From a virus: a stretch of DNA of 42,062 bases. The notes below the pieces were generated by a model. That model worked only from the letters and a program-made list of their open reading frames with translations. It was not told the DNA's origin and did not search any database. The DNA lies in IMG/VR virus record IMGVR_UViG_3300025645_000149, positions 1-42,062 of that record; one strand, written 5' to 3'. Each line of letters starts with the position of its first letter. Position 1 is the stretch's first letter. Below, piece by piece: positions 2,021 through 28,787 of this stretch. The position numbers and the translations under genes are program-made.

Positions 2021-2236
2021 ATGGGCGCGCTAGACAGACAAGTAGATGGCAATCATTACAAGACCTTGAAGATTCAGCCGTTGGAGTATTGCCTGCGAAA
2101 CAATCTGGGCATTTGCGAACACGGCGCGATTAAGTACCTATCAAGGTGGCGCACCAAAAACGGGGTTTCTGACCTACGCAAAGCGATTCATTATATTGAG
2201 ATTTTGATTGAGGAGGAGACCCGTGAGCAAGAGTAG
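2021..2236 (+). CDS. DUF3310 family protein (71 aa)
   Basis: The sequence shows the hallmarks of DUF3310 (PF11753, SaV-like): VDGNHYK near the N-terminus, then IQPLEYCLRNNLG, AIKYLSRWRTKNG and DLRKAIHYIEILI. These proteins are widespread in phages and sometimes labelled nucleotide-kinase-like, but the biochemical role is not established. I chose ATG 2021 over an in-frame TTG at 2000 because the family normally starts within a few residues of the HY motif and AGG at 2011 region can serve as ribosome site. Confidence 0.9.
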   Translation: MGALDRQVDGNHYKTLKIQPLEYCLRNNLGICEHGAIKYLSRWRTKNGVSDLRKAIHYIEILIEEETREQE

Positions 2237-2411
2237 GCTGGAGGAGGCAGTCCTCATCGCGTTCTTACTTTTAGTGATCGTGATTGTGCACGACATGGAT
2301 TTTGATGATCGCGTCCAAGAACTAGAAAATTACTGTGAACACGTCAGGAGTAGTGCTTGGCCTGACTACAACCCTGAGACCAACTGCGAGGAGGTAGCTT
2401 TAAATGACTGA
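2223..2411 (+). CDS. Small membrane protein with single TM segment (62 aa)
   Basis: A GTG at 2223 follows a perfect AGGAGGAG site, preferable to an upstream in-frame TTG at 2208 that lies inside the ribosome site's own upstream region. Residues about 9-23 (AVLIAFLLLVIVIV) form one membrane helix, followed by a short hydrophilic domain with two cysteines (YCEH and TNCEE) and a WPDYNPET motif. Similar N-anchored peptides with two cysteines and a WPDY motif are recurrent in marine phages; role unknown, perhaps an envelope modifier. Overlaps both neighbours. Confidence 0.75.
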   Translation: MSKSRLEEAVLIAFLLLVIVIVHDMDFDDRVQELENYCEHVRSSAWPDYNPETNCEEVALND

Positions 2412-2889
2412 TAAACAAAAACTTGTAGATAAGTATCCTCACTTCCGAGAATACTATTTCGCTTCAAAAAAGGAGGCAAAAGTGCGTAAACGCTGGACTG
2501 CGGATGAGGATGTCCGCTTGTATGAACTCATGTCTGCTGGCGTGTCATACGCGGAAATTGGCAAGGAAATGGGTCGCACAGACAAAGCTGTAGAGATGCG
2601 AGCATTCACGCTAAGACGGAAAATGCGAGCCGCTGGCATGAATGGTCAGTCAGATGTGATGACCAAGCGGAAGCCACGCAAACGCAAACCCGCCAAGCGC
2701 AAAGCTTCTGCTAAGAAGGTGCCGCAGAAAAAGGCTCCTCGCGCAAAGCCTGAGCCAGAGATCGTTTACTCCGGTGGCGCTATGTTTGAGGAGCGCATGG
2801 GTCACCTAATGTTGTTGGGTGCGGCTGGAGCGGCAGGCGTGTGGCTTGCTCTCATCTTAATTGGCGTTGGGTTTTTCCTGAACTTATGA
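2404..2889 (+). CDS. Myb/SANT-like DNA-binding protein with C-terminal membrane anchor (161 aa)
   Basis: Residues about 30-74 form a Myb/SANT-like or GcrA-like helix-turn-helix (RWTADEDVRLYELMSAG, then YAEIGKEMGRTDKAVEMR), with the Trp, acidic helix and IGxxMGRTxxAV recognition region typical of the fold. Residues 87-116 are extremely Lys/Arg/Pro-rich, like a histone H1 tail, and would bind DNA without sequence preference. Residues about 134-160 are a long uncharged stretch (MLLGAAGAAGVWLALILIG) that should span a membrane. The order DNA-binding domain, basic tether, membrane anchor suggests a protein that holds DNA at the inner membrane. Function is inferred, not known. Confidence 0.85.
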   Translation: MTDKQKLVDKYPHFREYYFASKKEAKVRKRWTADEDVRLYELMSAGVSYAEIGKEMGRTDKAVEMRAFTLRRKMRAAGMNGQSDVMTKRKPRKRKPAKRKASAKKVPQKKAPRAKPEPEIVYSGGAMFEERMGHLMLLGAAGAAGVWLALILIGVGFFLNL

Positions 2890-3089
2890 CGGGCGCTCGA
2901 CTTGCTGGTAAGAAGTTTTGTCTAAGCAAGAACCAAGTGGCGAAAGCCCTTGTTCTTGCTGAGGAAGGACATTACTGGTGGCAAATCGCAATCATGCTAG
3001 GGGTGGCGCAATCTACCCTGATGCGGTACGTTAGAGGTGCAGAGCGGTACGGTTACTCGTTTTGGTCTGAATACCCAAGGGAAGATTAA
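2886..3089 (+). CDS. Small HTH protein (67 aa)
   Basis: I chose ATG 2886, which overlaps the previous stop in an ATGA junction, over a GTG 45 bases upstream. Residues about 13-52 resemble the HTH of Hin-type resolvases: LSKNQVAKALVLAEEGHYWWQIA, then LGVAQSTLMRYVRG. The rest is a short tail. No catalytic domain is attached, so it is probably a regulator. Confidence 0.75.
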   Translation: MTGARLAGKKFCLSKNQVAKALVLAEEGHYWWQIAIMLGVAQSTLMRYVRGAERYGYSFWSEYPRED

Positions 3090-12313: not shown

Positions 12314-15300
12314 TTACTTGTTTTTGCCTACAACCTCATCATACCTGTCATTGAATCGCTCAATAACACGGTCTATTCTATCTTGCAGGTGCTTTTCTTG
12401 CTGTGCAAGCTCTACGGCTCGGTCAGGACTGATCGCTTTTAGCTTCTGTATGGCGCGCAAAGACGCCCTAAGACTCTTTAACGCCTTCTCAGTTGCCTTT
12501 GAGTTGGGCATCATATTGAAGAATGGCCTATTCTCCTTGATGTATGCCGCTCTTTCGGCACCCCTAAGCACTTTGTTGGCTTGATTGAGCTTGGCTGTTA
12601 GAGTTTCTCTGCGCTCATAGTATTGCTCGGTGTCTGGTTGGGCGTTGATTTCTCCGCGTATCCTGCGGACAAACGGAATGTCCCTGACCTCAAGCTCTGC
12701 TGTTTCGTCCAGAAGCGCAGACGGCACCTTTAGGAATGTTCTTTCCGCGAATGTTCCCGCGCCACCACCAAAGTAGCCTACCAAGTAGCTCATGGCATCT
12801 GGCGGAAACTCAATCGCCCCTGCTTCTGACTCGTTACCACCAAAAAACGTACTGACGCCTTCGGAAATGTTCTTCCACAGGGAGGCTGTGTTTTTAAAAG
12901 ACCTTCTAGACAAAGGCTCACTAAACCCACCAAACGGGTTGTCTGGTGGGTAAATAGGTGCGCCAAAGTAGTTTTCGTTCATGGTTAGCTCTAACGCCGG
13001 CTTGAGTATTTGTGGTGTTGCGGTTTTCAAGAGCGAGCCAATGTAAGTTTCGCTTGACGAAGTGCCAAGAGGGTTAAACGAGCCTAAGAATACGTTGGTG
13101 GCCCTGACAGCGGCATCTTCTTTAGATAGTGCTCCAGAGCTAACAAGATAGGCGTTCTCGCCAAGGTTGTAGAACACGTTGTACCCGTAAGGGAGCGGAA
13201 TAGTGCTGTATGTTTTCGGGTCACCGCCCCACAAGGCGTCCGGAATAATCATGTTCCTATCCCTAATGTACTCAGGGATGTCATCGAACTCTTCCTCGTC
13301 CATTAGCGATTCGGCAAGCGCGGCCATTAAAGCACCAAAACCCACAATGCCTCCAACAACCGCCTGCTTTGTTCTAGACGAGTCAGGGTTAAACACGTTC
13401 AGCCCGCGCATTGTATTCACGGTGCCCTGTACAGATGCGTTAAAGAACAGGTACAGGCCATTTAATAACTGCCCTGAGTTTCCTCGCCTGTTGAAGTTGA
13501 CTGTCAGATTCTTGGCTAGCGTTGCGGCTTCTTGCAAGGCTGTGTCCCCGTCTATACCCTTCGCCAGCATCGCATCTCTTGCCGCAACAAACGTGGCAAG
13601 CCTGACCCCGTTCTCTACGGCGGAGTTGGTGTCATCAATGAAGTCCTTGACAGCTACCAAGCCCTGCGTGGCATTACCACTAAATGTGCCATTCGCCATA
13701 TCGACCATGCGTTCGATGTTCTTTTTTTGTTGCTCCGGAGGCTTGGAATGAAACCAGTCTGTCTTAGCGCCCGTCTGCATAAACTCACGGAAGTCTATTG
13801 CATCCTGCCCAGTAAGGTTGCTGGGGTCTCGATATCCCTTGTAGAAAACCTTGATGGAGGGGATTGTTCTTTTGAGCACCTGCCCCACGATTTTCTTAGC
13901 ATTGACAGCCTTGCCGCCTTCCATTGTCTGTTCGCCAATGATGTTGTATATAGCGGTCTGCACATCACGGGCGAAGTTGCCCATAACAAACTCAGGGTTA
14001 AGGCTGGTGTTGACGTAAGACATAAAGCGTGTAAAGCCGTTGAGCCTTTCTACAAGAAACCCTACGCTTTCTGCATCAAGATTAATCGCGGCCTTTCTCA
14101 AGCTGGGGTTGGCAAAGTGAACGTAATACTGCTGTCCGTCTACTTTTACTCCAAGAAGCTCTTTGCCGTATGGGTTAATGACGGGATCTTGAATAACTCT
14201 AACGCGCTTGACCCAGTTCTTTTTGTCGTTTTCCTTGGAGATGTCAGACTTGCGCTCGCCGTAGCGTGACTTGTCAGGACCAACGTATGTGTATGAAGTG
14301 TCAAACGCCCTTCTGTACTGAGGGTCATCTGGAGAAATTAACTGCCACACCTCGTCATTCGGATTGTTCTTGATAAGCTCGACAAGGCGCTTGCCAAATG
14401 ACACGTTTTTAACTGATCTAGCAGTCTGCCTTCCACGGTCAGAAATGATTGTTGCAAGCGGAGAGATTGCCTCTGTTTGCCTGCCCATTAGCCGTTTTAC
14501 TTCCTTGCCCACAATACTCAGGCTTCCACCAGAACCAGCGGTGCCCTTGTTTGTTTCTGCGGCAATATCTTCGTCTTGTGAAATGCCGCGCAACGGCGTG
14601 TAATATTTAAAGAAGCCATCAAGGAACTCACGATCTTGCTTCGTCAGCAAGCCACCTCTCTCGGAGATTGCCAAGGTAGTGCTATTGATCTTGTCAACCT
14701 TGGATGCCAGCCTAGACATGAGCCTGCCAGCGTCATTGCCGCCTTCCCATTCGCCTTTTTTGTCGTTCCAACGCATGCCATACTTGTTAAGCATTTGTTT
14801 TTTGACGTAATCGTCAGTAAGCCTTTGGCCGTTCCACTCGCCAGATCCGGCGTCCGGTATGGATGGATTGATGTTTCTCACTCGCTCGTTACGCTCAATA
14901 GCATGCCGGAAAACCAAAAACTCATCCATCTGGTCCAACGACACACCACTTTCTGACATGTCATCAACAAGCGGTTGCAACTCATTTCTCTGGAATCTGC
15001 GATCAAGCTCGCCCAGCTTGCCGGGAATTGTTTCTTCGCCTATGTAGGCGCTTGCTTGAACGGCCAAAGGCGGCTCACCCCTAGCTTTTCTGGCCTCGTT
15101 AATTGCCTCTTCAATCGCCTTGAGGTCGGTTAGCTTGTCTTGAACCTGAAAGACAACCCGATCAAACCATGACCGAGATGGGGTTGTGAAAGAAGGGGCG
15201 TAGCCGTTTTGATCCGCAAATCCCGCGTTTACCGAAAAAGCAATCGGGCCTTGCTCAAGAGTTGCCGCGCCTGCGGGGTCTAGCTCGACTGACTCTGCAT

Positions 15301-18300
15301 ACTTAATAACTTGGTCAAGAGCATTTTGACTAGACCGCTCTACATTTCTGTCTGAGGCTCGACGCGAGAAGGCGACTTGGTCCTCACTGAGGATGTTTGC
15401 ATCGCTAGGTCGCTGTCCGGTGACATCGGCGTCTCCTTCAGATTCAACAGCGTCTGAAACAGCCGCCTCTGTAGTTGTTGTTCCTTCCGAGAAATCTTGG
15501 ATGATTTGATCGAGTCTTTCACGATTTACTTCCTCTGATTGATACCAAGGGTAGCCAGCTTCCCGATATGATTTTACACTAAATTGTGAGGGAATAACTC
15601 CGTTGGCCGGCTTCTTGATGTAAGCCAAGAATTCTTTAAAACGCTCTAAGCCAAACCTGTGCGGGGTGCCAGAACTGTCTGCGTACATAATGTACGGGGT
15701 TCCATCCGCATCGCGGGCATACACAGAGCCAAACGCAAACTGATGGAAGCGTCCTTCGGGTGCGCCTATGTCCGCATAAGACTCGGCTAGCGACCGATCC
15801 CCCTTGGTCTCACTGATTAAGCCCTGTATGGTTGGATGGGACACGACCTGCCCCGAGTCCCTTACCCAGCTTTCCCAGTGATAGCGCCCAACAGACGCAT
15901 CATCCGGTCTGCCGACCCCGTCATAAAGATCCTGTATTTTGTTGGCGAGGGATCGCTCCAAAGCCTCGTATCTTGCCAGCCCATGAGCGCCCTCAAACAA
16001 ACTCGCTATATCGTCATATATTAGCCTTCCGAATCGACCGGCGTCCCACATGGAATTGATTTGTATGCGGTCCAGCACCACTACATCCTTCCTTCCGGTC
16101 ATCAGAAGAATAAACGACAGCACTTTATTCTGAATTCCCATGCCTTGATTCAAGCCGTAGTACCTAGCCCGGATGTCGCTGGTTGGCACAGACTTGTCAG
16201 CTATAAGGTCATGCAGTTCTTCTAGCGCAGACTTGCCGCTTGGTGTGCGCTTTGACATTTTTGGTAGGAATGTTTTGCCAAAGGCACGGAGATTGGATGT
16301 TCCCTGCTTAGATGGAGCAAAGTCTGGAATAACCGTGTCCGTCCACTGAAGGTATTCGTCTATGTCAGCTTGAGTCCATTCCCGCTCGACGGCCCTACCA
16401 ATAAACTCAGACAGTTTTTTGTCTATGGCGGCATCAAGGAACGCTGACTCATGCGGGTGTGCAGACAGCATTCGAGAAAGTATGCCCCACAGCATCAGCT
16501 TACCCGTGGTGTCTACCGTGGCATCCCCGTTTGCGTAGGCTTGGCTCATATCTTCTACAAGCTCAAAGCCCTCTCCAGCGGCGGCAAGCTGTTCTGGAGT
16601 AAGCTCTTTATGCCTCTCAACCCACGCATCTATGTCGTCGTACAGCCTGATTAAACCTGTCGGCGCTGACGGCGTTTCGTTGTCGCCCATTAAATCACGC
16701 TCAAACCGCAACCATGCGGCCTTGCTGGATAGTGGGTCTGGGTGCCGCTCTGCCAACTCAGCCAGTTTTTGAGCCTGCGCCTCACCGTTTTTGGGATTGA
16801 TTGCTTTGGGCAGTGCTGGCTTGCCAGACACCTGACCTCTGGAGGAGACAATATATTCTTTGGGGATTCCATGCTTCATGTCGGCGCGGCGACTAAACAT
16901 CATATCGTCAATGCCCACCCTTCTCACCAACACGCCGGCAGGGCCAAGGTTTAGCGAAGACACCTCAAATTCAGGGCCAAGCGCGCCCCTCACATAATCA
17001 ACAAGCTCCCTCCTAGAGAACCCTTTTTGATAGGTTCCTCTGGTGGTGATAATTGAGGTTGCCTCTGGCCCAAGGTTGCCTTGAGCAGAAAGAACCTCCT
17101 TGCCTCTCGTTGTGATTACCGCAACCCCGCCCGCGTCAAGAGCAGTCCCTATGTCCCTGACAATCCTGTCTCTTGCGTCACGCGGCACCACGTTCAGCAC
17201 ATTGAGGTTTAGGATTTTGTCATAAGATCGCGGGGATATCTGGTCTGGCTCTGTATAGGTGGGAGAAAAGTCTTTGCGAGGAAACGGCTCGTAAGAGTCA
17301 TACCCTAGCTCCTTGGCGCCAAGACCAAGACCTGCGCCAAAGTCCAGATACCTGTCTCCAGACCCCTCTCGGTCCAATATATCTGCGGCCTTGCGGTATG
17401 TCGGCAGGGTTCCCGAAATCTGCGTTCTTTGCGCGTTTTCCGGCGGCGGCAGATCAGTGCGCCTACTGAACATGATGTCATCTTCGTACCGCATGCCCTC
17501 TGGCACAGCAGTGGGGTCGTACTCAGCGAACACGCCCTTGATGTCAGCGGGATTAAATACTGCTATGCCAGTTACGTCCTTGCCAGTCCCGCCCTCAAAA
17601 TCAAGGTAGGAATCAAATCCAGCCGCCTTGATGAAAGGGGATATGGTCTCAAGATCCTCAAACGTGAACTTGGTTAGGGGTGTAGCTCGCACCTTTTTGC
17701 CAATCTTATCTGTGACGGAATCTGCAAAAGAGATCGCGTCTGGCTCAGTGAGATCGAGCCGTGATGTGCTGAGGAGGTTATCGACAATAAGTTTGTGCCC
17801 TTGACCGTCTGCACCTCGGTCGATGTCGGCCATAACTAGGCTCACCATCTTCTTGTCGCGAGGGTCAAATGTGTTTTTAGCGCGCAAGAACACGGGGTAG
17901 ACAGTCTGCGCCTCACCCTCTCTAGCCACTACGGGTACAAACGTGTTGGCAAACTTTGGATCTGTGGTGAAGTGGCCAGCAATGATGCCTTTTGCGTGAG
18001 GGATTTCCGTGCGGAATCGACGAATGTCAGGCGAGGCTGTGCCGTGGTAGTAGGGGGTGCTGGTGTCATAGCCCTGCTCGTCCGCTCTGTCCAGCCTGCG
18101 GCTAAACATCATATCGTCGATGCCAGCCTCTTCCATCAGGCTGTCAGACTCCGGTATTTTTTCCTTCAAAACCTCTAATTTTTCAGGGGTCGAACCTGAA
18201 GCTGTTGCAACAACTGGCGCTCGTCTATTAATAAACTGGCCGGATATCTGCTCCAGCCTGTACAGTGTACGCACCTGCCCGCGCTGACGCTCTCCAATCG

Positions 18301-21300
18301 CCCCAGACTCAAGGTCGGTAATAAACTGAGTGAATGACTCGTAGTCGGGATCGGCCTCTTTTGCCGTATTAAACAAGCCCTTAAAAAACTTAACAATACG
18401 GTTAAATATAGATCGAGGTTTGCCGGTGAGCTTGGCTGACTTGTTATCTATTATGATGCGACCAGATATTCCGTCGCGAATCATTTCGGCTACTGCTTCT
18501 TCTGATATGTTGACGGCAGTGTCACCCGCGTAGGTTTCTGTCGCCCACTCCATGTAAGTTTGATTGGTGTCAGTCTTGCGGTATTTAGTCGCCAATCTTT
18601 CCAGAAGCTGTAACTCTTGCTGGGTAATAACATCAAGCTCACGCAGTGCATGCACAATCTCATGGTTGAGCACGTCAATTACTGCGGACTCAATGTCTTC
18701 TGGCTTATTCGCCCGAGACATAATCGCATCTAACGCAACCTGTATGGTCTTGGCGCCACTGCGTTGATATCCACCCTCGACACGCTCATCCGCGCCCTCT
18801 GCGACGTTGTTAAGGTAGACGTTGCCGTCAGCGTCTCGCTCAACATTGCGAACCAAGTCCGTCACAACCCCTGAGATGTCTGGCAAGCCAAGCGCTTTGA
18901 GGCGTCGATTAACCGCATCAGACAGCATCTTCTTGGTGTCGGGGGCTATCGAGGGGGGCGGTAATGCGGCTATTGGCTCTTGCTCGACTTGCCCCTCGGG
19001 AGACGTGCGCCGCGCTCGACTTGTCACTTCTTTGTATGCGGCGTCAGTCAGCGGCTTCCCCGAGGTGTACTCCAGTTCGGCCCTATTAATATCCTTGCCA
19101 TTGGCTTGGTAGTAGTCTGTTGCGGTGGCAATTTGGCTGGCCGTGTAAGGCCGTAGCTTAAACTGAGGGATCTTGGTGGGCTGGTCAAAACGCGGAAGCT
19201 GGCTGAGCTTCAAGTAAAGCAACTGACCCTCAGCGGGCGTAAGGTCATGTATCCCTTGATCTCTTCTTAACTTGTTACCAGTAAATCTAGCCGCAAGGTG
19301 TTTGATTTCTGGTGAATTGATATCTGAAGATATGTTTTTTTGATCCAGTATTCTGCGTATTTTTTCTACGCTGAACTCTGGATCTCCCATTATCTCCTTG
19401 ATCGGTATCCTAGCTTCGTCCTTCGCCCTGTTAGACTCTCCCGCATAGTCAGAAGCATCCGCCACAGACGTAAACTTCACCCGCTTTGGCGGTCTTTTGC
19501 CCTGCTCTCTGGCCGCTTGGCGCTCTGCCGCAGTTGCAGGACGATCAAAGATGTAGTCGCCGGCAGGCTCCATCTGCCCGTCAACATTCATTGCCTCTGG
19601 AATTACAGCAAACTTACCCTCAACAGGGAACGGCAATGCTCGGAAAGTGTTTACGCGGAAGGTGCCTGACTCGTAGTCAGCAAGACGACCCACATCAGAT
19701 CCGATCTCCCGGCGTATCTCGCTTAGCGCAAACCTGTTAGTAGTAGGCTGATTGTTTTTAAGTCTACGCACGTTAATTCGCTGGGCAATAGTCTGTTGCT
19801 TGCGAGGAATGCTGTTTTTGATGATCTCTTCGGGGGACAGAGTAGGCAGGAACCCTTTCTCGGGAACGGTGCCGCCTGCGTAATTTGCGGCCTCTGCGGA
19901 ATACGACAGCGACTCTGGGCCAAGAGCAATACGGCCTAGTCGGTGCAGTGTCCTAACTTGATCGGGGGAATAGTCTTCGGATGACTCATTAATAACTATA
20001 CGGTTATTCTGGAAGATAGACTCTTCAACAGTCTGAGCATTGAGGGCAACGAGGGCAGGCTGTAGCTTGATTTTTTCTTGAGGCGTGACCGCTCTGCCGT
20101 ATGCTTGTCCAGACGGGTCTTGTATTTGGAAGGTGTTGTTATCGTTTTCAACAATCTCAAACACTGGCTCAGTCGGAAAGCTATCACCCATCTGAGCAAC
20201 AACGCTTTGGCCAAACGCCTTGTAATCACTCGCGCTTAGCTCTTCTTGATTGAGCAGGGTGTTTAGAGAATCTCCAATTATCTCCGGCTCGGCCTCAACG
20301 GGGACGGCAAGTCGCTCAGAAAGTCTTTCTCTTCGGGCTGTTTCATTGTTATCAATGCCGTCGCGCAATTCTTCCTCTGCCGCAACAAGCTCTTCACGCA
20401 AAGGCTTTACTTCATCGGGGCTATCTAAACCAGACAGTCTGCTTTTTCTGGTTGCCAAATTAAGAGCAACATCAAAGAATGCGCCGGCTACACCGCCAGC
20501 CCCTAAGTCAGACGCCAGTGAGTCGGTAATGTCAATGTCTGGGTTGATGTATTCCTTTAGATTGGCATTAGATGCAAGGCCGGCAAGGGCTTCCTGAGCA
20601 CCTTCAAGCGTACCTTGCTTCAGCGCGCTAACCAAATAGTCCGTGATTGTCTTTACGGCCTTCGGGTCTTTTGCCGCCGCTTTGGATAGCGATCGGAATG
20701 CCCCTACAGCTAAACGACCAATCGGAAGACCTTCAGATGCGCCAATCAAAGCCTGATTCCGCATGGCGGTTTCGTAATCTTCGTCGGAGACAGATCGACC
20801 CATCTCCAATGCTCTGGCCGTCGCCTCCATGCCGGCACTGACATTAGCGCCAGACCCTATGGTGGCGCCACCCAAGATGCCAGCGCCGGCTCCCACCAGT
20901 GCACCCACAGGGCCACCAATTAAGAAGCCGGCACCGACACCCGCCAAAGCAGGTCCATAGCTAGGGAGCGCCCCGCCTATTGCTCCCGATAAAAACCCTA
21001 CAGCCCCGTCTTCGTAGCCCTCGTCATACCCAAAGAACTCTGAAATGCTTTGTGCGGCACGGCGGTTGCGCTCTACAAGGGCTTTATCGTCTTCGTCAAA
21101 GCCTTCTTCCCCAAAGAACCGCTCTTGCAGACCGCTTGGGACTTGAGCTAATTGCGTTGCCGCAGAGCCAAGGGTTCTTTGACCAAACTCAACCACGTCA
21201 TCAAACAGGCTGGTCTCTTGGCTATATGCGGCAGACGGGTCTAGTGCGTACTGCTGAGACGCATAGGAAAGGATGTCCTGCTCTGCCGCGCCATCAGGAT

Positions 21301-21352
21301 GCTGAATATCAATCAGCTTGCCATCTGGAGTCTGTACCTGAGTTACCGGCAT
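12314..21352 (-). CDS. Giant polyvalent virion/ejection protein with protease, ART and methyltransferase modules (3012 aa)
   Basis: Order along the chain: an N-terminal VQTPDGKLIDIQHPDGA segment seen at the start of many phage internal proteins; a glycine-zipper hydrophobic region about 110-175; an HExxH site His897-Glu898-His901 with a downstream EEAVAEM block, as in gluzincin-like peptidases; an ADP-ribosyltransferase-like module about 1090-1290 (YYHGT near 1101, GHFTTDPKFANTF, VYPVFLRAKN); a Rossmann methyltransferase-like module about 1310-1480 (YLDFGAGLGLG near 1336); an unassigned module about 1490-1990; and a C-terminal LPD38-like part with LTVNFNRRGNSG and LYLFFNASVQG near 2610-2640 followed by a TM-like helix near 2670. 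Four [DE]D-x-x-[MA]FSRR motifs (near 1083, 1295, 1485, 1994) mark the joints. It is likely packaged and ejected into the host. Module roles are by motif, not proven. Confidence 0.9.
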   Translation of the reverse strand: MPVTQVQTPDGKLIDIQHPDGAAEQDILSYASQQYALDPSAAYSQETSLFDDVVEFGQRTLGSAATQLAQVPSGLQERFFGEEGFDEDDKALVERNRRAAQSISEFFGYDEGYEDGAVGFLSGAIGGALPSYGPALAGVGAGFLIGGPVGALVGAGAGILGGATIGSGANVSAGMEATARALEMGRSVSDEDYETAMRNQALIGASEGLPIGRLAVGAFRSLSKAAAKDPKAVKTITDYLVSALKQGTLEGAQEALAGLASNANLKEYINPDIDITDSLASDLGAGGVAGAFFDVALNLATRKSRLSGLDSPDEVKPLREELVAAEEELRDGIDNNETARRERLSERLAVPVEAEPEIIGDSLNTLLNQEELSASDYKAFGQSVVAQMGDSFPTEPVFEIVENDNNTFQIQDPSGQAYGRAVTPQEKIKLQPALVALNAQTVEESIFQNNRIVINESSEDYSPDQVRTLHRLGRIALGPESLSYSAEAANYAGGTVPEKGFLPTLSPEEIIKNSIPRKQQTIAQRINVRRLKNNQPTTNRFALSEIRREIGSDVGRLADYESGTFRVNTFRALPFPVEGKFAVIPEAMNVDGQMEPAGDYIFDRPATAAERQAAREQGKRPPKRVKFTSVADASDYAGESNRAKDEARIPIKEIMGDPEFSVEKIRRILDQKNISSDINSPEIKHLAARFTGNKLRRDQGIHDLTPAEGQLLYLKLSQLPRFDQPTKIPQFKLRPYTASQIATATDYYQANGKDINRAELEYTSGKPLTDAAYKEVTSRARRTSPEGQVEQEPIAALPPPSIAPDTKKMLSDAVNRRLKALGLPDISGVVTDLVRNVERDADGNVYLNNVAEGADERVEGGYQRSGAKTIQVALDAIMSRANKPEDIESAVIDVLNHEIVHALRELDVITQQELQLLERLATKYRKTDTNQTYMEWATETYAGDTAVNISEEAVAEMIRDGISGRIIIDNKSAKLTGKPRSIFNRIVKFFKGLFNTAKEADPDYESFTQFITDLESGAIGERQRGQVRTLYRLEQISGQFINRRAPVVATASGSTPEKLEVLKEKIPESDSLMEEAGIDDMMFSRRLDRADEQGYDTSTPYYHGTASPDIRRFRTEIPHAKGIIAGHFTTDPKFANTFVPVVAREGEAQTVYPVFLRAKNTFDPRDKKMVSLVMADIDRGADGQGHKLIVDNLLSTSRLDLTEPDAISFADSVTDKIGKKVRATPLTKFTFEDLETISPFIKAAGFDSYLDFEGGTGKDVTGIAVFNPADIKGVFAEYDPTAVPEGMRYEDDIMFSRRTDLPPPENAQRTQISGTLPTYRKAADILDREGSGDRYLDFGAGLGLGAKELGYDSYEPFPRKDFSPTYTEPDQISPRSYDKILNLNVLNVVPRDARDRIVRDIGTALDAGGVAVITTRGKEVLSAQGNLGPEATSIITTRGTYQKGFSRRELVDYVRGALGPEFEVSSLNLGPAGVLVRRVGIDDMMFSRRADMKHGIPKEYIVSSRGQVSGKPALPKAINPKNGEAQAQKLAELAERHPDPLSSKAAWLRFERDLMGDNETPSAPTGLIRLYDDIDAWVERHKELTPEQLAAAGEGFELVEDMSQAYANGDATVDTTGKLMLWGILSRMLSAHPHESAFLDAAIDKKLSEFIGRAVEREWTQADIDEYLQWTDTVIPDFAPSKQGTSNLRAFGKTFLPKMSKRTPSGKSALEELHDLIADKSVPTSDIRARYYGLNQGMGIQNKVLSFILLMTGRKDVVVLDRIQINSMWDAGRFGRLIYDDIASLFEGAHGLARYEALERSLANKIQDLYDGVGRPDDASVGRYHWESWVRDSGQVVSHPTIQGLISETKGDRSLAESYADIGAPEGRFHQFAFGSVYARDADGTPYIMYADSSGTPHRFGLERFKEFLAYIKKPANGVIPSQFSVKSYREAGYPWYQSEEVNRERLDQIIQDFSEGTTTTEAAVSDAVESEGDADVTGQRPSDANILSEDQVAFSRRASDRNVERSSQNALDQVIKYAESVELDPAGAATLEQGPIAFSVNAGFADQNGYAPSFTTPSRSWFDRVVFQVQDKLTDLKAIEEAINEARKARGEPPLAVQASAYIGEETIPGKLGELDRRFQRNELQPLVDDMSESGVSLDQMDEFLVFRHAIERNERVRNINPSIPDAGSGEWNGQRLTDDYVKKQMLNKYGMRWNDKKGEWEGGNDAGRLMSRLASKVDKINSTTLAISERGGLLTKQDREFLDGFFKYYTPLRGISQDEDIAAETNKGTAGSGGSLSIVGKEVKRLMGRQTEAISPLATIISDRGRQTARSVKNVSFGKRLVELIKNNPNDEVWQLISPDDPQYRRAFDTSYTYVGPDKSRYGERKSDISKENDKKNWVKRVRVIQDPVINPYGKELLGVKVDGQQYYVHFANPSLRKAAINLDAESVGFLVERLNGFTRFMSYVNTSLNPEFVMGNFARDVQTAIYNIIGEQTMEGGKAVNAKKIVGQVLKRTIPSIKVFYKGYRDPSNLTGQDAIDFREFMQTGAKTDWFHSKPPEQQKKNIERMVDMANGTFSGNATQGLVAVKDFIDDTNSAVENGVRLATFVAARDAMLAKGIDGDTALQEAATLAKNLTVNFNRRGNSGQLLNGLYLFFNASVQGTVNTMRGLNVFNPDSSRTKQAVVGGIVGFGALMAALAESLMDEEEFDDIPEYIRDRNMIIPDALWGGDPKTYSTIPLPYGYNVFYNLGENAYLVSSGALSKEDAAVRATNVFLGSFNPLGTSSSETYIGSLLKTATPQILKPALELTMNENYFGAPIYPPDNPFGGFSEPLSRRSFKNTASLWKNISEGVSTFFGGNESEAGAIEFPPDAMSYLVGYFGGGAGTFAERTFLKVPSALLDETAELEVRDIPFVRRIRGEINAQPDTEQYYERRETLTAKLNQANKVLRGAERAAYIKENRPFFNMMPNSKATEKALKSLRASLRAIQKLKAISPDRAVELAQQEKHLQDRIDRVIERFNDRYDEVVGKNK

Positions 21353-23347: not shown

Positions 23348-24394
23348 TTAGCCCCCAAAACCGCCAAGTGCGTTGTATAGTCCTACCCCTGCAATGCCAG
23401 AGCCAAGTAACTGCTGTGTCGTGCTGGGGGTAACGCCGTATGATTGTGATATTTGTCCCGGCGCAATCGGCAGACCCTGTAGCATGGAGCTATAGAATGC
23501 CAACTGCTCTTTCGGGAATGCTTGCTGTCGCAAGAAGTCTGTGTAGCCAACATCCAAGCCGCGTTGATTTAGCTCTCTCTGGATCTGGCCTGCTGTCTGC
23601 ATTGCTCGCAGACGCTCCATCTCCTGAGCCTGACGCTGAGCTACGAAGTCGCCCATCATCCCTGCCGCCGCAAGCTGTTGCTGACCACCGGAAAGAAGCT
23701 GACCATATGCGCTCTGGCCAAGCTGAGCCGCCGTCCTAGCTTGCTGTTGCCGGAAGGTCTCACGTTGAGCCTGCGCCGCACGATCTGCCTCAAAGCCTCG
23801 TACAGCCTGCTCGTAAGCAGACTGACTGCCACGGGTCTGGATGTCGCCAAGCTGTTGGCCCAAGTTGCGCTCACGCTCTGCCTGCATAATTGCTTCTCGG
23901 TAGCCGCCAAGACTGCCGATGCCAGCCGCATCCAAGCCAATCTTTTGGCCCATAATGTCAGACTGCCGCTGGGCTTCACGCTTCTCTACATCAACAACAG
24001 CCTGTTGATATGGATTCATGTAAGACTGTACAGCCCCCTGATTGGCCAAGGAGCCGGGAGCAAAACCTACCCCCTGCTCTTGTGCTCGCTTGGTGACTTC
24101 CAGCATTGTGTCAGCATAAGGAATGCCTTGGCCTGCCTGTGCCGCAATGTCACCTGCCGCCATTAACTCGTCAGGAGTACCAGAGACGCCAAGTTGCTCA
24201 AACCGACGCATCGCCTCTTGCTCTGCGGGAGCGAAGTATTCAAGGCGCTGATCGGGAAACGTCTCGTAAGGTATCGACGCTTCATAACCGACACGCGCCA
24301 ATAGGTCTCGGTAAAATGGTTCGGCAAACTCAGGTAGGTTTGTTTGAGTTACCGTTGATTCAGTTGGGCCGCTTGAGCCTCCGCCACCACACAT
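23348..24394 (-). CDS. T7 gp14-like internal virion protein (348 aa)
   Basis: The protein begins MCGGGGSSGP, followed by VTQTNLPEFAEPFYRDLLARV, a start shared by many marine podophage internal proteins. The middle (about 130-290) is a long Ala/Gln/Arg-rich helical region (GLDAAGIGSLGGYREAIMQAE, then REAQRQ, QQQARTAAQL). The last 40 residues are Gly-rich and hydrophobic and may insert into the membrane. Size, helicity and position beside GNAT-fold gp13-like genes suggest a role in the ejection channel. Call is by context and composition. Confidence 0.8.
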   Translation of the reverse strand: MCGGGGSSGPTESTVTQTNLPEFAEPFYRDLLARVGYEASIPYETFPDQRLEYFAPAEQEAMRRFEQLGVSGTPDELMAAGDIAAQAGQGIPYADTMLEVTKRAQEQGVGFAPGSLANQGAVQSYMNPYQQAVVDVEKREAQRQSDIMGQKIGLDAAGIGSLGGYREAIMQAERERNLGQQLGDIQTRGSQSAYEQAVRGFEADRAAQAQRETFRQQQARTAAQLGQSAYGQLLSGGQQQLAAAGMMGDFVAQRQAQEMERLRAMQTAGQIQRELNQRGLDVGYTDFLRQQAFPKEQLAFYSSMLQGLPIAPGQISQSYGVTPSTTQQLLGSGIAGVGLYNALGGFGG

Positions 24395-24865
24395 TTAAAG
24401 CTCCTTACGAGCGCAATATCCAAATCGCTCATATCCTGTTTCATCAAAAATACTTTCAAGTGTTTTTCCGGGGATGCCAGAGCCAATGGTATACTTGACT
24501 TCGCTAGCCCCTTTCGTCCTAGCCCAATCTTCAAAAGCCCCTATCACAGCTTTAGTCGCATCCCTTGTGTGTTCTCGCATGCTTGGGTCAAGCGCAAATC
24601 CATACTCCAACGCATCGTTCCCATCAAAAAGGGGGTTGGAAAACAAACCGCCTAAAAACGCCCCTCTTCCTACTCCGTCAGAGTCTTCTACAACCAATCC
24701 TAAGTTCTGGTCGTACTCAACAACCTCAAAAATAGTTTTTGGTAGTTTTTCTGCGCTTAACGTCCTGCTTGCATACTTAGATTGCTGTATATACATAGCG
24801 AGCAAGTTCGCAACCAGTGGAGCGTCACGATGCTCCAGCAACCTTATCGTGAAGCCTTCCCTCAT
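24395..24865 (-). CDS. GNAT-fold protein (156 aa)
   Basis: The sequence IRLLEHRDAPLVANLLAMY is a typical first helix of a GNAT acetyltransferase, and LEYGFALDPSMREHTRDATKAVIGAFEDWARTKG resembles the acetyl-CoA binding strand and helix, though the usual Q/RxxGxG/A is not intact. The end (FDETGYERFGYCARKEL) is also GNAT-like. It abuts the start of the gp14-like gene, so it belongs to the virion set. It may be structural, like T7 gp13, rather than catalytic. Confidence 0.8.
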   Translation of the reverse strand: MREGFTIRLLEHRDAPLVANLLAMYIQQSKYASRTLSAEKLPKTIFEVVEYDQNLGLVVEDSDGVGRGAFLGGLFSNPLFDGNDALEYGFALDPSMREHTRDATKAVIGAFEDWARTKGASEVKYTIGSGIPGKTLESIFDETGYERFGYCARKEL

Positions 24866-25272
24866 AAGTCCTTCTCGTAAAATGCCGATGTTTTGTCAAA
24901 GCCGTCCTGCTTCAAAAACTTCCAGAAACCAAACCGAGCAGTTCCTTCTATGGCTGAACAATTCATGTTTTTGCCGTGATTTGTCACATGCTCCAGCATA
25001 GATGGATACCACTGCTCAAGACTAGTCCCACCCAAGAAGTGCATGGACAGGCACCGCTTTCCGGGGTATTGAGTAATCTCTGTGGTGAGTGCGCCCCAGA
25101 TGCGTTCTTCGTCGAATGCTATCCAAAGCTGGCTTCTGCCGTTGCAGAGCACGGCGATAAGATGCTCTAGCGTCCATCTGCCGTGTGATGTTTCTACCGC
25201 TGGCTCTAGGTACTCCCTGATGTCTGACCAAACCTCAAAGACATTCTCAGGGGGCACTAGAGTAATTTTCAT
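24862..25272 (-). CDS. T7 gp13-like GNAT-fold virion protein (136 aa)
   Basis: The pattern MKITLVPPENVFEVWSDI, HGRWTLEHLIAVL, LWIAFDEERIWGALTTE and CSAIEGTARFGFWKFLKQDGF matches the gp13-like family of marine podophages, a GNAT-fold protein needed for correct internal core assembly in T7. The acetyl-CoA loop is degenerate. It overlaps the following GNAT gene by four bases, giving two tandem GNAT-like genes, and overlaps the 1172-residue virion gene upstream by four bases. Confidence 0.85.
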   Translation of the reverse strand: MKITLVPPENVFEVWSDIREYLEPAVETSHGRWTLEHLIAVLCNGRSQLWIAFDEERIWGALTTEITQYPGKRCLSMHFLGGTSLEQWYPSMLEHVTNHGKNMNCSAIEGTARFGFWKFLKQDGFDKTSAFYEKDL

Positions 25273-28200
25273 CTGGGCATAACCCTCTGGGCTTCAATCG
25301 CAGGAGGCTGATCTGCCGTGCCGCCTCGCGCCATCCGGACCCTCTCTAACATCGAGTCAAGCTCGTCAGCGCCAGCGTCTGAGCTTCCATCGCCAAGATC
25401 GGACACAACGTCAGCGGGGACAATATATTCTCCCGGCGATACAGCTACCGGCTGAGAAGCCCCGATCATTCCGGGTATCATATCATCCATTCCGCCGCCT
25501 TGACCGCGAATCATGCCTTCATTCTGAGCATTCGGTGTCACCATGCTGAGTATCATTTCACGCACTTGACCAAACACCTCTGGGCCATACTTACCCAAGA
25601 ACATCTGGATAATTTGATCTGCCTCTGGCGCACCACCCAAGAGCGCAGATGCCAGCATAGTGACATCTTGCTCACTGGGGCTTGCCGCAAATTCTGAATC
25701 TACCTCAGCAATGCCCCCTGCTGGGGTCTCCCTTGAGCCAAGAGAGCCTACTAAGGTTCTGCCTCCTTCTTGGAATGGGAAGCGACCCATAGAGTTAAGG
25801 AAGCCGCCGCCAGACTGAATTGCCCCTAGCGCCTGATTCATAGCCTCTTCCTGCTCCGGAGTAAGCTCAGGAGCGCCTGCTGGGGGTGTAGCGGGTGTAT
25901 TTGACGCCGCCATTGCCGCCTGAATAGTCGCTGGATCAATGTTAATGCCGGGAATGCCTGCAATCCCATCCACTGGCTTGGTCTGACGCCGAGACGGGGC
26001 CGCAACGGTTATTGCCTCAGTGTTAGGAACAGATGATTCAGACCCAGCATTAGGGTTTTGCAGATTTCTAAAATATTCAAAGCTACTTGTATAAGGCACG
26101 TCAACGGGGGTTCCCGATCCGGGTGGGCCGTAAATATTCCACGGGGTAATCGTCTCTCCGGTGCCTGTGTCAGGTGCGGTGGATGGGGCGGTTACATCAA
26201 AGGTGGGCAAAGCAGGCGCATTGCTCTGAGAAGACTGTGCGGTCGAAGCGTCTTCCGAACTGGAGGTAGCTGAGTCAGGCGCGTCATCTAACCCGTACAT
26301 CCAGCTAAAGTCATCTTGCGTTATATATGAGTCAGGATTGTCACCAGAACCCGCGTTCCAATCACTCATCCCTACCGCCGCGTTGTCGGGGCTTGGCATA
26401 CTGCCGGTTAGCCGAGCCATCCCAAACTTTTCTTCTTCCGTCATCAGGGCGGGGTCAATAAATGCGGCAGACTTTAAAGCATGGTCTCGTTCACTATTGT
26501 ATTTCTCGTTATATTTTTCCTGACTCATATAGTTGTGAAGCGCACCGTCCTTGTAGTAGATGCCCTCGCCATACATACCTTTGGAGCCGGGAATAATAAA
26601 GGGGTCATCACCGACGCTTCCTAGCACCCTTTCATTCGCAACATAGTATCCGCTCGGAGCGTCAGTTCCATCTAGAGCAGTCCTGCCTGCGTAAACACTG
26701 GGGTCTACGCCCTCGATAGAGGCCATGTCGTAAGCAATAACCTTGCCGTCTACGATCCTGTAAAACGATCCGCCGCTAGATGATTGAGACGCCCCGCCAG
26801 AGGTAGAGCCAATCGTGCCAGAATATCCGCCGCCGCTAGGGTACGAATTGCCGCCGGGAGAGCCACTGCCAGAAACTCCTGCCGAGCCACTGTCAGAAGC
26901 TCCTGCGGAGCTACCTCCGGAAGACCCGCTAGAGGCTCCGCCAGACGCCCCTCCGGTCGTGTCACCGCCGCTTGCTGGAGGCTCCGCATCTACAGGCTCA
27001 GCGGGAGCGTTCGCTCCGCCCATGCCATAGCTAGCCAGAGTTCTGTAGTAGTCCTGTAGTTGAGACAGGTACTGACCCCGCTGAAGAATCGGATCAAAAT
27101 ACTGACCGCCTGACTCTACACCCTCCAAGGTGGGACGGAATGCCCTGTTTGGTATAAACGGTGCGTTCGGATCATCTTGGAAATACTGAAACTCAGGCTC
27201 AAATCCAGCCATGTAATCTAATGGGCTAGCGATCTTGTAGTTTGGTCGCAAGCTACGCTGTATCTCTACAGGATCTATGCCCTGAAGGGCGCCTGCGGGG
27301 GCGGTGTAACCAAAAATGTTTTGATTGGCTAGCATAGCCGCATATGGACTTTCAGCTTCAGGCTGTGCCGCCTTAATAGATCGCTCGCGCTGTGTTCTGT
27401 ATCTTTCGCGCCGGTTGTAATACCGCTCAAGAAAAGACTGCTCTTTAGGGGTAAGTATCTCGCCGGCTTCCGCCTTCTGAAGCGCCTTGTACTCCTGAGT
27501 ATCCTCTGGGTCGGTTCCCGCTTTAATGCCATAATATCCCGGCGTAAGCATGTCTACGCCGTCTTCGTCGAGCACTTCAAACTTATCTGTTACTTTTGGA
27601 GTCGGAGCGACAGGATCTTCGCCTTCGCCTGCCGCACCGTCCGATGAAGCGCCGTCGTAATACTGAGAGGCAAAATCGGCAAACGAAAGGTCACTGGGTA
27701 TCATTCCCGCCCCAAGCATGGCGTCATATATTTGCTTTACAGAAAGAGCGGGGGCCGCGCCTCCTCGGTTCATTCTGACTATGCCGCCCTCGGCGGCGTA
27801 TGTGCTGGGAGCCGCGTAGTCGTAGGTCCGCTGACTCATCTGAGATCGGTAAGGGCTATCCCCTCGCGCCACTCCGGGCTGTGCCATTGAGTATGCTCTC
27901 TGGAGGTCAGCGTATGACTCGCCCATGCTGGCCTCATTCTCTTCCATGAGTCTGCGCTGTTGCTTCTCAAAGTCCTCTTCCATGTCCATCTGAGCAATCT
28001 GGCCAGAGCCAATACCAATGCCCATTAGCTGGCCGGTAGTGCCGACTTTATCTACAACATTCTGAAAGCCTTGACCGACCTTAGAGCCACTCACTGCCGT
28101 GTCAAACTGGCCTACCATGCCGGGAGCTTCGGATACATACGGTGCTGGTGGGGCGCTTAATGCGGCAGATGCGTCCTGAGCAATTTGTTGCGATTGAGCA

Positions 28201-28787
28201 ACATAATCGACCGGAGGCAAGGTACCTGCCGCTTGAGCGGCTTGTTGCCCCGCAGTTTGCGCCTGAGCTAGAAAATCTGTGCCACCGGGAGGAACTAATC
28301 CTTCCGCCAGTGTTGCTGTTGACATGTCTAGGCCAGTAGCGAGGGAGTCCGTTGCTCCAGCGGCTAATTCGGCGCCTGTGCCAAGTGCGTCCGCCCCTGT
28401 GGTGGCAACATCTACCCCCGTCTGAGCACCTTCAACCAAGCCGCCGATACCCTCAGCAAGACCGCTACCCAGACCGGCTGTCAGGCCAGAGAGCAACCCC
28501 CGCTTGAGATCGCCCGTCACTGCCGCTGTGCCGATACCTGTTAGCGCCGCTGAGCCTAATGCGCCCAGACCCAGCTTAGTTCCAAGCATGCCCAGTGCAG
28601 GGGCCAAGAATGGCAGGAAAGCCTCTGGCTGTCCGGTCACAGGGTTGATCGTCAGGTTTCCCGTGGGGGAGAGCGATGCGATGCCCGCAACCTCAACTGG
28701 GTTCATGTGTACCAGCATGGAATCCCCGTAGCGTCCGTACTGGGCCATCTGATCCATCATTGGCTTTGCTGGGTATTGATTGTTCAT
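25269..28787 (-). CDS. Large virion protein with glycine-rich hydrophobic and Ser/Gly linker regions (1172 aa)
   Basis: The N-terminus (YGRYGDSMLVHMNPVEVAG, then PVTGQPEAFLPFLAP) is conserved among marine podophage virion proteins. Residues about 57-120 form a Gly/Ala hydrophobic segment likely to be membrane-active. An AEGGIVRMNRGG motif lies near 337, residues about 610-680 are an almost pure Ser/Gly/Ala linker, and the C-terminus has AVSPGEYIVPADVVSDLG followed by a RVRMARGG motif. No enzyme motif is visible. It probably acts as an internal virion or tail-core protein. The start has AUG at 28787 overlapping the neighbour's stop. Confidence 0.85.
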   Translation of the reverse strand: MNNQYPAKPMMDQMAQYGRYGDSMLVHMNPVEVAGIASLSPTGNLTINPVTGQPEAFLPFLAPALGMLGTKLGLGALGSAALTGIGTAAVTGDLKRGLLSGLTAGLGSGLAEGIGGLVEGAQTGVDVATTGADALGTGAELAAGATDSLATGLDMSTATLAEGLVPPGGTDFLAQAQTAGQQAAQAAGTLPPVDYVAQSQQIAQDASAALSAPPAPYVSEAPGMVGQFDTAVSGSKVGQGFQNVVDKVGTTGQLMGIGIGSGQIAQMDMEEDFEKQQRRLMEENEASMGESYADLQRAYSMAQPGVARGDSPYRSQMSQRTYDYAAPSTYAAEGGIVRMNRGGAAPALSVKQIYDAMLGAGMIPSDLSFADFASQYYDGASSDGAAGEGEDPVAPTPKVTDKFEVLDEDGVDMLTPGYYGIKAGTDPEDTQEYKALQKAEAGEILTPKEQSFLERYYNRRERYRTQRERSIKAAQPEAESPYAAMLANQNIFGYTAPAGALQGIDPVEIQRSLRPNYKIASPLDYMAGFEPEFQYFQDDPNAPFIPNRAFRPTLEGVESGGQYFDPILQRGQYLSQLQDYYRTLASYGMGGANAPAEPVDAEPPASGGDTTGGASGGASSGSSGGSSAGASDSGSAGVSGSGSPGGNSYPSGGGYSGTIGSTSGGASQSSSGGSFYRIVDGKVIAYDMASIEGVDPSVYAGRTALDGTDAPSGYYVANERVLGSVGDDPFIIPGSKGMYGEGIYYKDGALHNYMSQEKYNEKYNSERDHALKSAAFIDPALMTEEEKFGMARLTGSMPSPDNAAVGMSDWNAGSGDNPDSYITQDDFSWMYGLDDAPDSATSSSEDASTAQSSQSNAPALPTFDVTAPSTAPDTGTGETITPWNIYGPPGSGTPVDVPYTSSFEYFRNLQNPNAGSESSVPNTEAITVAAPSRRQTKPVDGIAGIPGINIDPATIQAAMAASNTPATPPAGAPELTPEQEEAMNQALGAIQSGGGFLNSMGRFPFQEGGRTLVGSLGSRETPAGGIAEVDSEFAASPSEQDVTMLASALLGGAPEADQIIQMFLGKYGPEVFGQVREMILSMVTPNAQNEGMIRGQGGGMDDMIPGMIGASQPVAVSPGEYIVPADVVSDLGDGSSDAGADELDSMLERVRMARGGTADQPPAIEAQRVMPR

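Follow-up and report, generated by a model that had tools for sequence, protein, structure and literature searches.

The locus and its giant gene

The window, by which we mean the whole stretch of DNA analyzed (42,062 nucleotides), comprises positions 1 to 42,062 of the IMG/VR virus record IMGVR_UViG_3300025645_000149. On its minus strand lies a giant ORF whose parts are listed in Table 1. The LPD38 match scores 121 bits against a curated cut-off of 27, and the ORF combines several domains with disparate functions in a single chain, as LPD38 polyvalent proteins characteristically do, most of these domains being recognized by weak or structural evidence. By homology to virion-associated polyvalent proteins such as gp69 of Burkholderia phage JC1, which is DarB-like (PMC9144972), the giant protein is probably a virion component that is injected into the bacterial host.

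Two genes upstream of the giant gene, an ORF at 23348-24394 (minus strand) matches PHROG 4287, a DNA ejection protein. Two adjoining small ORFs at 24395-25272 (minus strand) look acetyltransferase-like by eye (sequence ends), and an ORF of 1172 residues at 25269-28787 (minus strand) has no PHROG match at E 0.01.

Table 1. Parts of the giant polyvalent protein and their positions in the window
Feature	Residues	Position in window	Strand	Evidence
Polyvalent (multi-domain) phage protein	3012 aa	12314..21352	-	Uninterrupted ORF; LPD38 and PHROG matches
N-terminal part	1-806	18935..21352	-	HMM matches
HExxH metallopeptidase-like domain	~866-1019	18296..18757	-	Invariant residues; confident AlphaFold region
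Joint J1, DDMMFSRR	1079-1086	18095..18118	-	
M1, ADP-ribosyltransferase (ART)-like module	~1098-1290	17483..18061	-	ART-PolyVal match below cut-off
Joint J2, DDIMFSRR	1291-1298	17459..17482	-	
M2, methyltransferase-like module	~1310-1480	16913..17425	-	Methyltransf_23 below cut-off; LDFGAGLGLG in sequence
Fifth FSRR, within M2, not counted as joint	1445-1448	17009..17020	-	
Joint J3, DDMMFSRR	1482-1489	16886..16909	-	
M3, predicted Ogg-like (HhH) DNA glycosylase-fold module	~1490-1960	15473..16885	-	Foldseek; invariant K, D
Joint J4, DQVAFSRR	1991-1998	15359..15382	-	
Conserved C-terminal part	2061-3012	12314..15172	-	Alignment, HMM
LPD38 domain (PF18857)	2686-2895	12668..13297	-	E 8.7e-35

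Modules of the giant protein

The domain ahead of J1 carries HEIVH at residues 897-901 with a conserved EE.A downstream, and H98, E99, H102, E152, E153, and A156 (alignment A2 numbering) are invariant across 16 HExxH-domain sequences. All 16 homologues thus have the HExxH motif and the downstream glutamate of polyvalent-type zincin-like metallopeptidases, and AlphaFold models the region confidently at about residues 866-1019. Pfam gave no match above cut-off for this domain, and a PDB fold search with its model returned none. We call the domain metallopeptidase-like, with a putative proteolytic activity.

ART-PolyVal (PF18760) matches residues 1100-1170 with an E value of 1.2e-4, below the curated cut-off; when the M1 segment was scanned alone, the match reached E 7.8e-6 and 27.1 bits, under the cut-off of 31.2, and the module is therefore named ART-like only. 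The Methyltransf_23 match to M2 (residues 1324-1421, E 0.0055) likewise lies below its curated cut-off. M3 had been left unassigned in the preliminary description; its model (about residues 1489-1959) has pLDDT values mostly above 90, and its best fold match is an Ogg-type 8-oxoguanine DNA glycosylase, 3n0u (Foldseek probability 1.00 and TM 0.72 by target length, with an E value of only 9.4e-3), whose fold it shares at about twice the length. K1743 and the D of VVLDR are invariant in 47 homologues, in an order that fits HhH glycosylases. No significant sequence match of M3 to glycosylases was found (best, 3fhf at E 0.41; Ogg-HhH at E 0.26 in 1 of 47 members). The model suggests an Ogg-like (HhH) DNA glycosylase fold for M3, and the weak sequence matches agree with this prediction.

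In viral contigs, the M3 family counts at least 116 relatives, many of them forming the C-terminal part of proteins of 700 to 850 residues. Queries with M1, M3, and the M3 counterpart of relative L001 gave no tblastn match in the phage collection.

An FSRR peptide at the joints between modules

The tetrapeptide FSRR starts at residues 1083, 1295, 1445, 1486, and 1995. The copies at 1083, 1295, 1486, and 1995 each fall between modules (HExxH domain, ART-like, methyltransferase-like, M3, and C-terminal part) as mapped by profiles and models, which bears out the preliminary description that had placed four copies at module joints. The copy at 1445 stands in another context (YQKGFSRREL), inside the methyltransferase-like module, and is not matched by the joint pattern defined below. 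Composition predicts 0.04 FSRR in a protein of this length, and five or more copies have a probability of about 8e-10, in agreement with the earlier view that the placement is hard to explain by chance. Two of the positions first given (1083 and 1295) were exact, while the other two (1485 and 1994) were one residue short. The consensus proposed, [DE]D-x-x-[MA]FSRR, describes J2 (EDDIMFSRR) and J4 (EDQVAFSRR) exactly, whereas J1 and J3 both read IDDMMFSRR and follow DD-x-M-FSRR instead. No joint motif was found in the other ORFs tested within the window.

Modules are exchanged while the linker is kept

Relatives of the giant protein in IMG/VR (relatives in Stx-converting phages exist and were excluded from the analysis) show a cassette architecture, in which modules are swapped, lost, or inserted at the joints and the linker stays. 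One example is L001, whose N-terminal and C-terminal parts are 80% and 90% identical to those of the window protein: its ART module has diverged, M2 and M3 have been replaced by unrelated modules, and FSRR is kept at all four joints. Another relative (L116) has neither ART nor methyltransferase, its N-terminal part running straight into M3 through a single joint, GDMMLSRR, and in a third (L020) the ART module is joined directly to an L001-type M3 through DDILFSKK. Variants at the relatives' joints include YSKR, FSKK, LSRR, and ESRR. Standalone M3 proteins show no joint motif ahead of M3.

The module that replaces M3 in L001 (L001:7997-9769) overlaps a DUF7178 match, and DUF7178 is also found in L039. 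Residues 1352-1515 of L001, the replacement of M2, contain HDGRHRARQL, which we take to be reminiscent of ParB-like or sulfiredoxin-like folds. A separate lineage (L131-L140 and L178) has FIKK/YIKK-type peptides ahead of both M3 and the C-terminal part.

Enrichment of the joint pattern in relatives

A joint pattern, [VILMT][LMAIVR][FYLEA][SA][RK][RKQI], was drawn from a set of 15 non-redundant relatives. It has 28 sites in the 10,260 residues of their effector region, compared with 1.2 in shuffled sequence and 4 for the reversed pattern, and stays at background level in their N-terminal and C-terminal parts. Since the pattern came from the same data and some of the sites are mutually homologous, it was fixed and then tested on 24 new proteins that had been retrieved by their HExxH domain. 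This held-out set contained 15 sites where 3.4 were expected (maximum of 200 shuffles, 9; reversed pattern, 5), and a strict form of the pattern occurred 7 times against 0.4 expected (reversed strict form, 0), with the N-terminal and C-terminal parts again near background; not all of these sites are independent, because some are homologous joints, such as RYEDDIMFSRR after the ART module. The linker does mark joints, and the effector regions of relatives, the new proteins included, are enriched in it.

Outside this circle the signal fades. Distant LPD38 proteins give a weak signal at the joint ahead of the C-terminal part (mean percentile 0.59, p 0.01), and a matrix trained on the clade gives none at the ART joints of unrelated polyvalent proteins (mean percentile 0.48, not significant). 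The expectation that the motif would be enriched at module boundaries across homologues therefore holds for the effector regions of relatives, including the new proteins, and fails for the ART joints of unrelated polyvalent proteins. The plain tripeptide FSR is enriched only 1.7-fold in 76 LPD38 proteins (29 vs 17.5), and a block-end test from local alignments was weak (16 of 34 vs 11.1 ± 2.6). Joints within one protein did not agree significantly in their motif variant (27 proteins, p 0.19). The long form DD[IM]MFSR(R) with fixed codon choices had only chance-level matches in viral_contigs and genome_contigs, none of them polyvalent, and we regard it for that reason as lineage specific.

Joint presence and absence of the HExxH domain and the motif

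Within the window's clade, motif, HExxH domain, and effectors occur together or are missing together. Four relatives (L016, L018, L019, and L029) have N-terminal and C-terminal parts and lack effectors, HExxH domain, and motif alike; the last ~200 residues of the N-terminal part are also kept in them (HMM matches). These four form one clade, so that the joint absence counts as one evolutionary event. Across a set of 65 proteins, those with HExxH tend also to have a motif site (Fisher p 0.033), but longer proteins are likelier to have both. Three observations speak against a general rule of cleavage in cis: the joint pattern finds no match in 11 of the 24 new relatives that bear HExxH, the signal fades outside the clade, and Vibrio phage K248 (L006) keeps NDVMFSKEV with no HExxH in the same protein.

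The giant proteins of two Vibrio phages, L005 and L006, are 94% identical in their N-terminal and 97% identical in their C-terminal parts and have entirely different middles; one of the two carries HExxH, and the other does not.

Possible role of the joint peptide

The FSRR-like peptide may be a short recognition site placed between the modules of a protein that is probably injected. The chain would be processed at these joints, either before packaging or after ejection, so that the three modules (ART-like, methyltransferase-like, and glycosylase-like) would come apart and be freed from the C-terminal part with its LPD38 domain. The likeliest enzyme would be the HExxH metallopeptidase-like domain, placed just ahead of J1. 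We infer recognition, cleavage, and the identity of the enzyme alike, and offer this as the leading reading, tentatively, at somewhat short of an even chance. The proposal in the preliminary description, a cleavage or recognition site perhaps cut by the HExxH module, is partly supported. Its fuller form, a self-processing injected polyprotein in which a joint code is read by the protein's own metallopeptidase to release each freely shuffled module, is conceivable but doubtful. The AlphaFold model speaks to both sides: J2 and J3 lie in low-confidence and hence probably flexible stretches, pLDDT dipping below 50 at residues 1482-1487 of J3, whereas J4, against a processing role, falls where a helix predicted at low confidence begins and not in a clear loop.

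The main rival to processing is that the peptide is bound and not cut: as a docking or handling motif for a capsid, portal, or chaperone partner, it would let all modules be held or threaded alike during packaging and ejection. Such a role would account for the repeats at every joint, for conservation at the level of the peptide, and for the motif without HExxH in phage K248, and P1 DarB reaches the capsid through a short N-terminal signal (PMC9024508). We nevertheless consider it unlikely, as the effector-less relatives without the motif still have the N-terminal and C-terminal parts, presumably the packaging carriers.

The cut could also come not from HExxH in cis but from a different phage protease or from a host protease, the latter with a preference for dibasic or other sites. 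The frequent basic pair and, once more, phage K248 fit this proposal. Some joints, however, end in SRI, ARI, or SRQ, so that the basic pair is not strict, and HExxH domain and motif are jointly absent in one clade, which leaves a foreign protease distinctly unlikely.

A plain structural linker or hinge, through which modules unfold and refold at the portal with no specific recognition, would suit the probably flexible stretches at J2 and J3. Flexibility, however, needs no fixed ordered sequence, and the reversed pattern shows no enrichment in the held-out proteins and, in the clade, far less than the forward pattern; we find this explanation very unlikely.

It is highly improbable that the linker is a seam for module exchange, its DNA allowing in-frame swaps by recombination and its peptide having no role in the protein. 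Swaps, losses, and insertions of modules do occur at the linkers, and J1 and J3 have similar DNA (6 of 8 codons identical), as after a duplication. J1 and J2, in contrast, share 1 of 8 codons and yet 7 of 8 amino acids, with synonymous differences at 6 codons and a single amino acid change. J4 also departs from J1, coding SRR as TCG CGT CGA where J1 has AGC CGC AGG; its serine codon is TCG, and those of the other window joints are AGY. Because codons differ in this way between joints, it is the peptide that is kept and not the DNA, and the variants YSKR, FSKK, LSRR, and ESRR likewise preserve the type of peptide.

Internal translation starts, by which modules would be made separately from the in-frame ATG codons of J1 to J3 (DDMMFSRR and DDIMFSRR), are scarcely credible, given that J4 and most of the relatives' joints (IAFSRR, VLESRR, TLYSKK, and ILASRI) have no Met and that purine-rich stretches lie farther upstream than is usual for a start, as judged by eye.

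Comparison with known systems

For the possible cutting of polyvalent proteins, the joint motif points to exact sites that may be cut and, in the same chain, to a candidate enzyme. It can also help to set module borders where domain libraries fail to resolve these proteins.

Iyer et al. 2017 (PMC5512222) had already proposed in general terms that polyvalent proteins are processed by metallopeptidases; a keyword search of the text of that paper did not find the joint linker motif, and a search of the available literature on FSRR/MFSR in phages, on LPD38, and on self-processing polyvalent proteins returned no joint motif. P1 DdrB, a metallopeptidase-bearing polyvalent protein, is reported to be processed to 76 kDa (PMC5512222). 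Like the giant protein it bears HExxH, but near its C terminus, and the joint pattern finds no match in it. The DdrB sequence (L198) reads LFLSRAFN at about residues 717-724, near the size of the processed form (76 kDa, ~700 residues); this peptide lies outside the joint pattern and may be a chance occurrence. By description, N4 virion RNA polymerase is comparable as a large ejected protein with a zincin-like domain, and yet it is reported to be packaged uncut (PMC5512222), which argues against processing.

LPD38-type polyvalent proteins such as JC1 gp69 are also very long and multi-domain, and the C-terminal part of the giant protein is homologous to theirs (28% identity to JC1). If the giant protein does process itself, the release of its modules would resemble that of viral polyproteins. 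Relative to the polyvalent proteins described by Iyer et al. 2017 (PMC5512222), the feature of its own, and what is new here, is a specific, repeated, and conserved joint peptide, with evidence for its selection as a peptide while the modules around it are exchanged.
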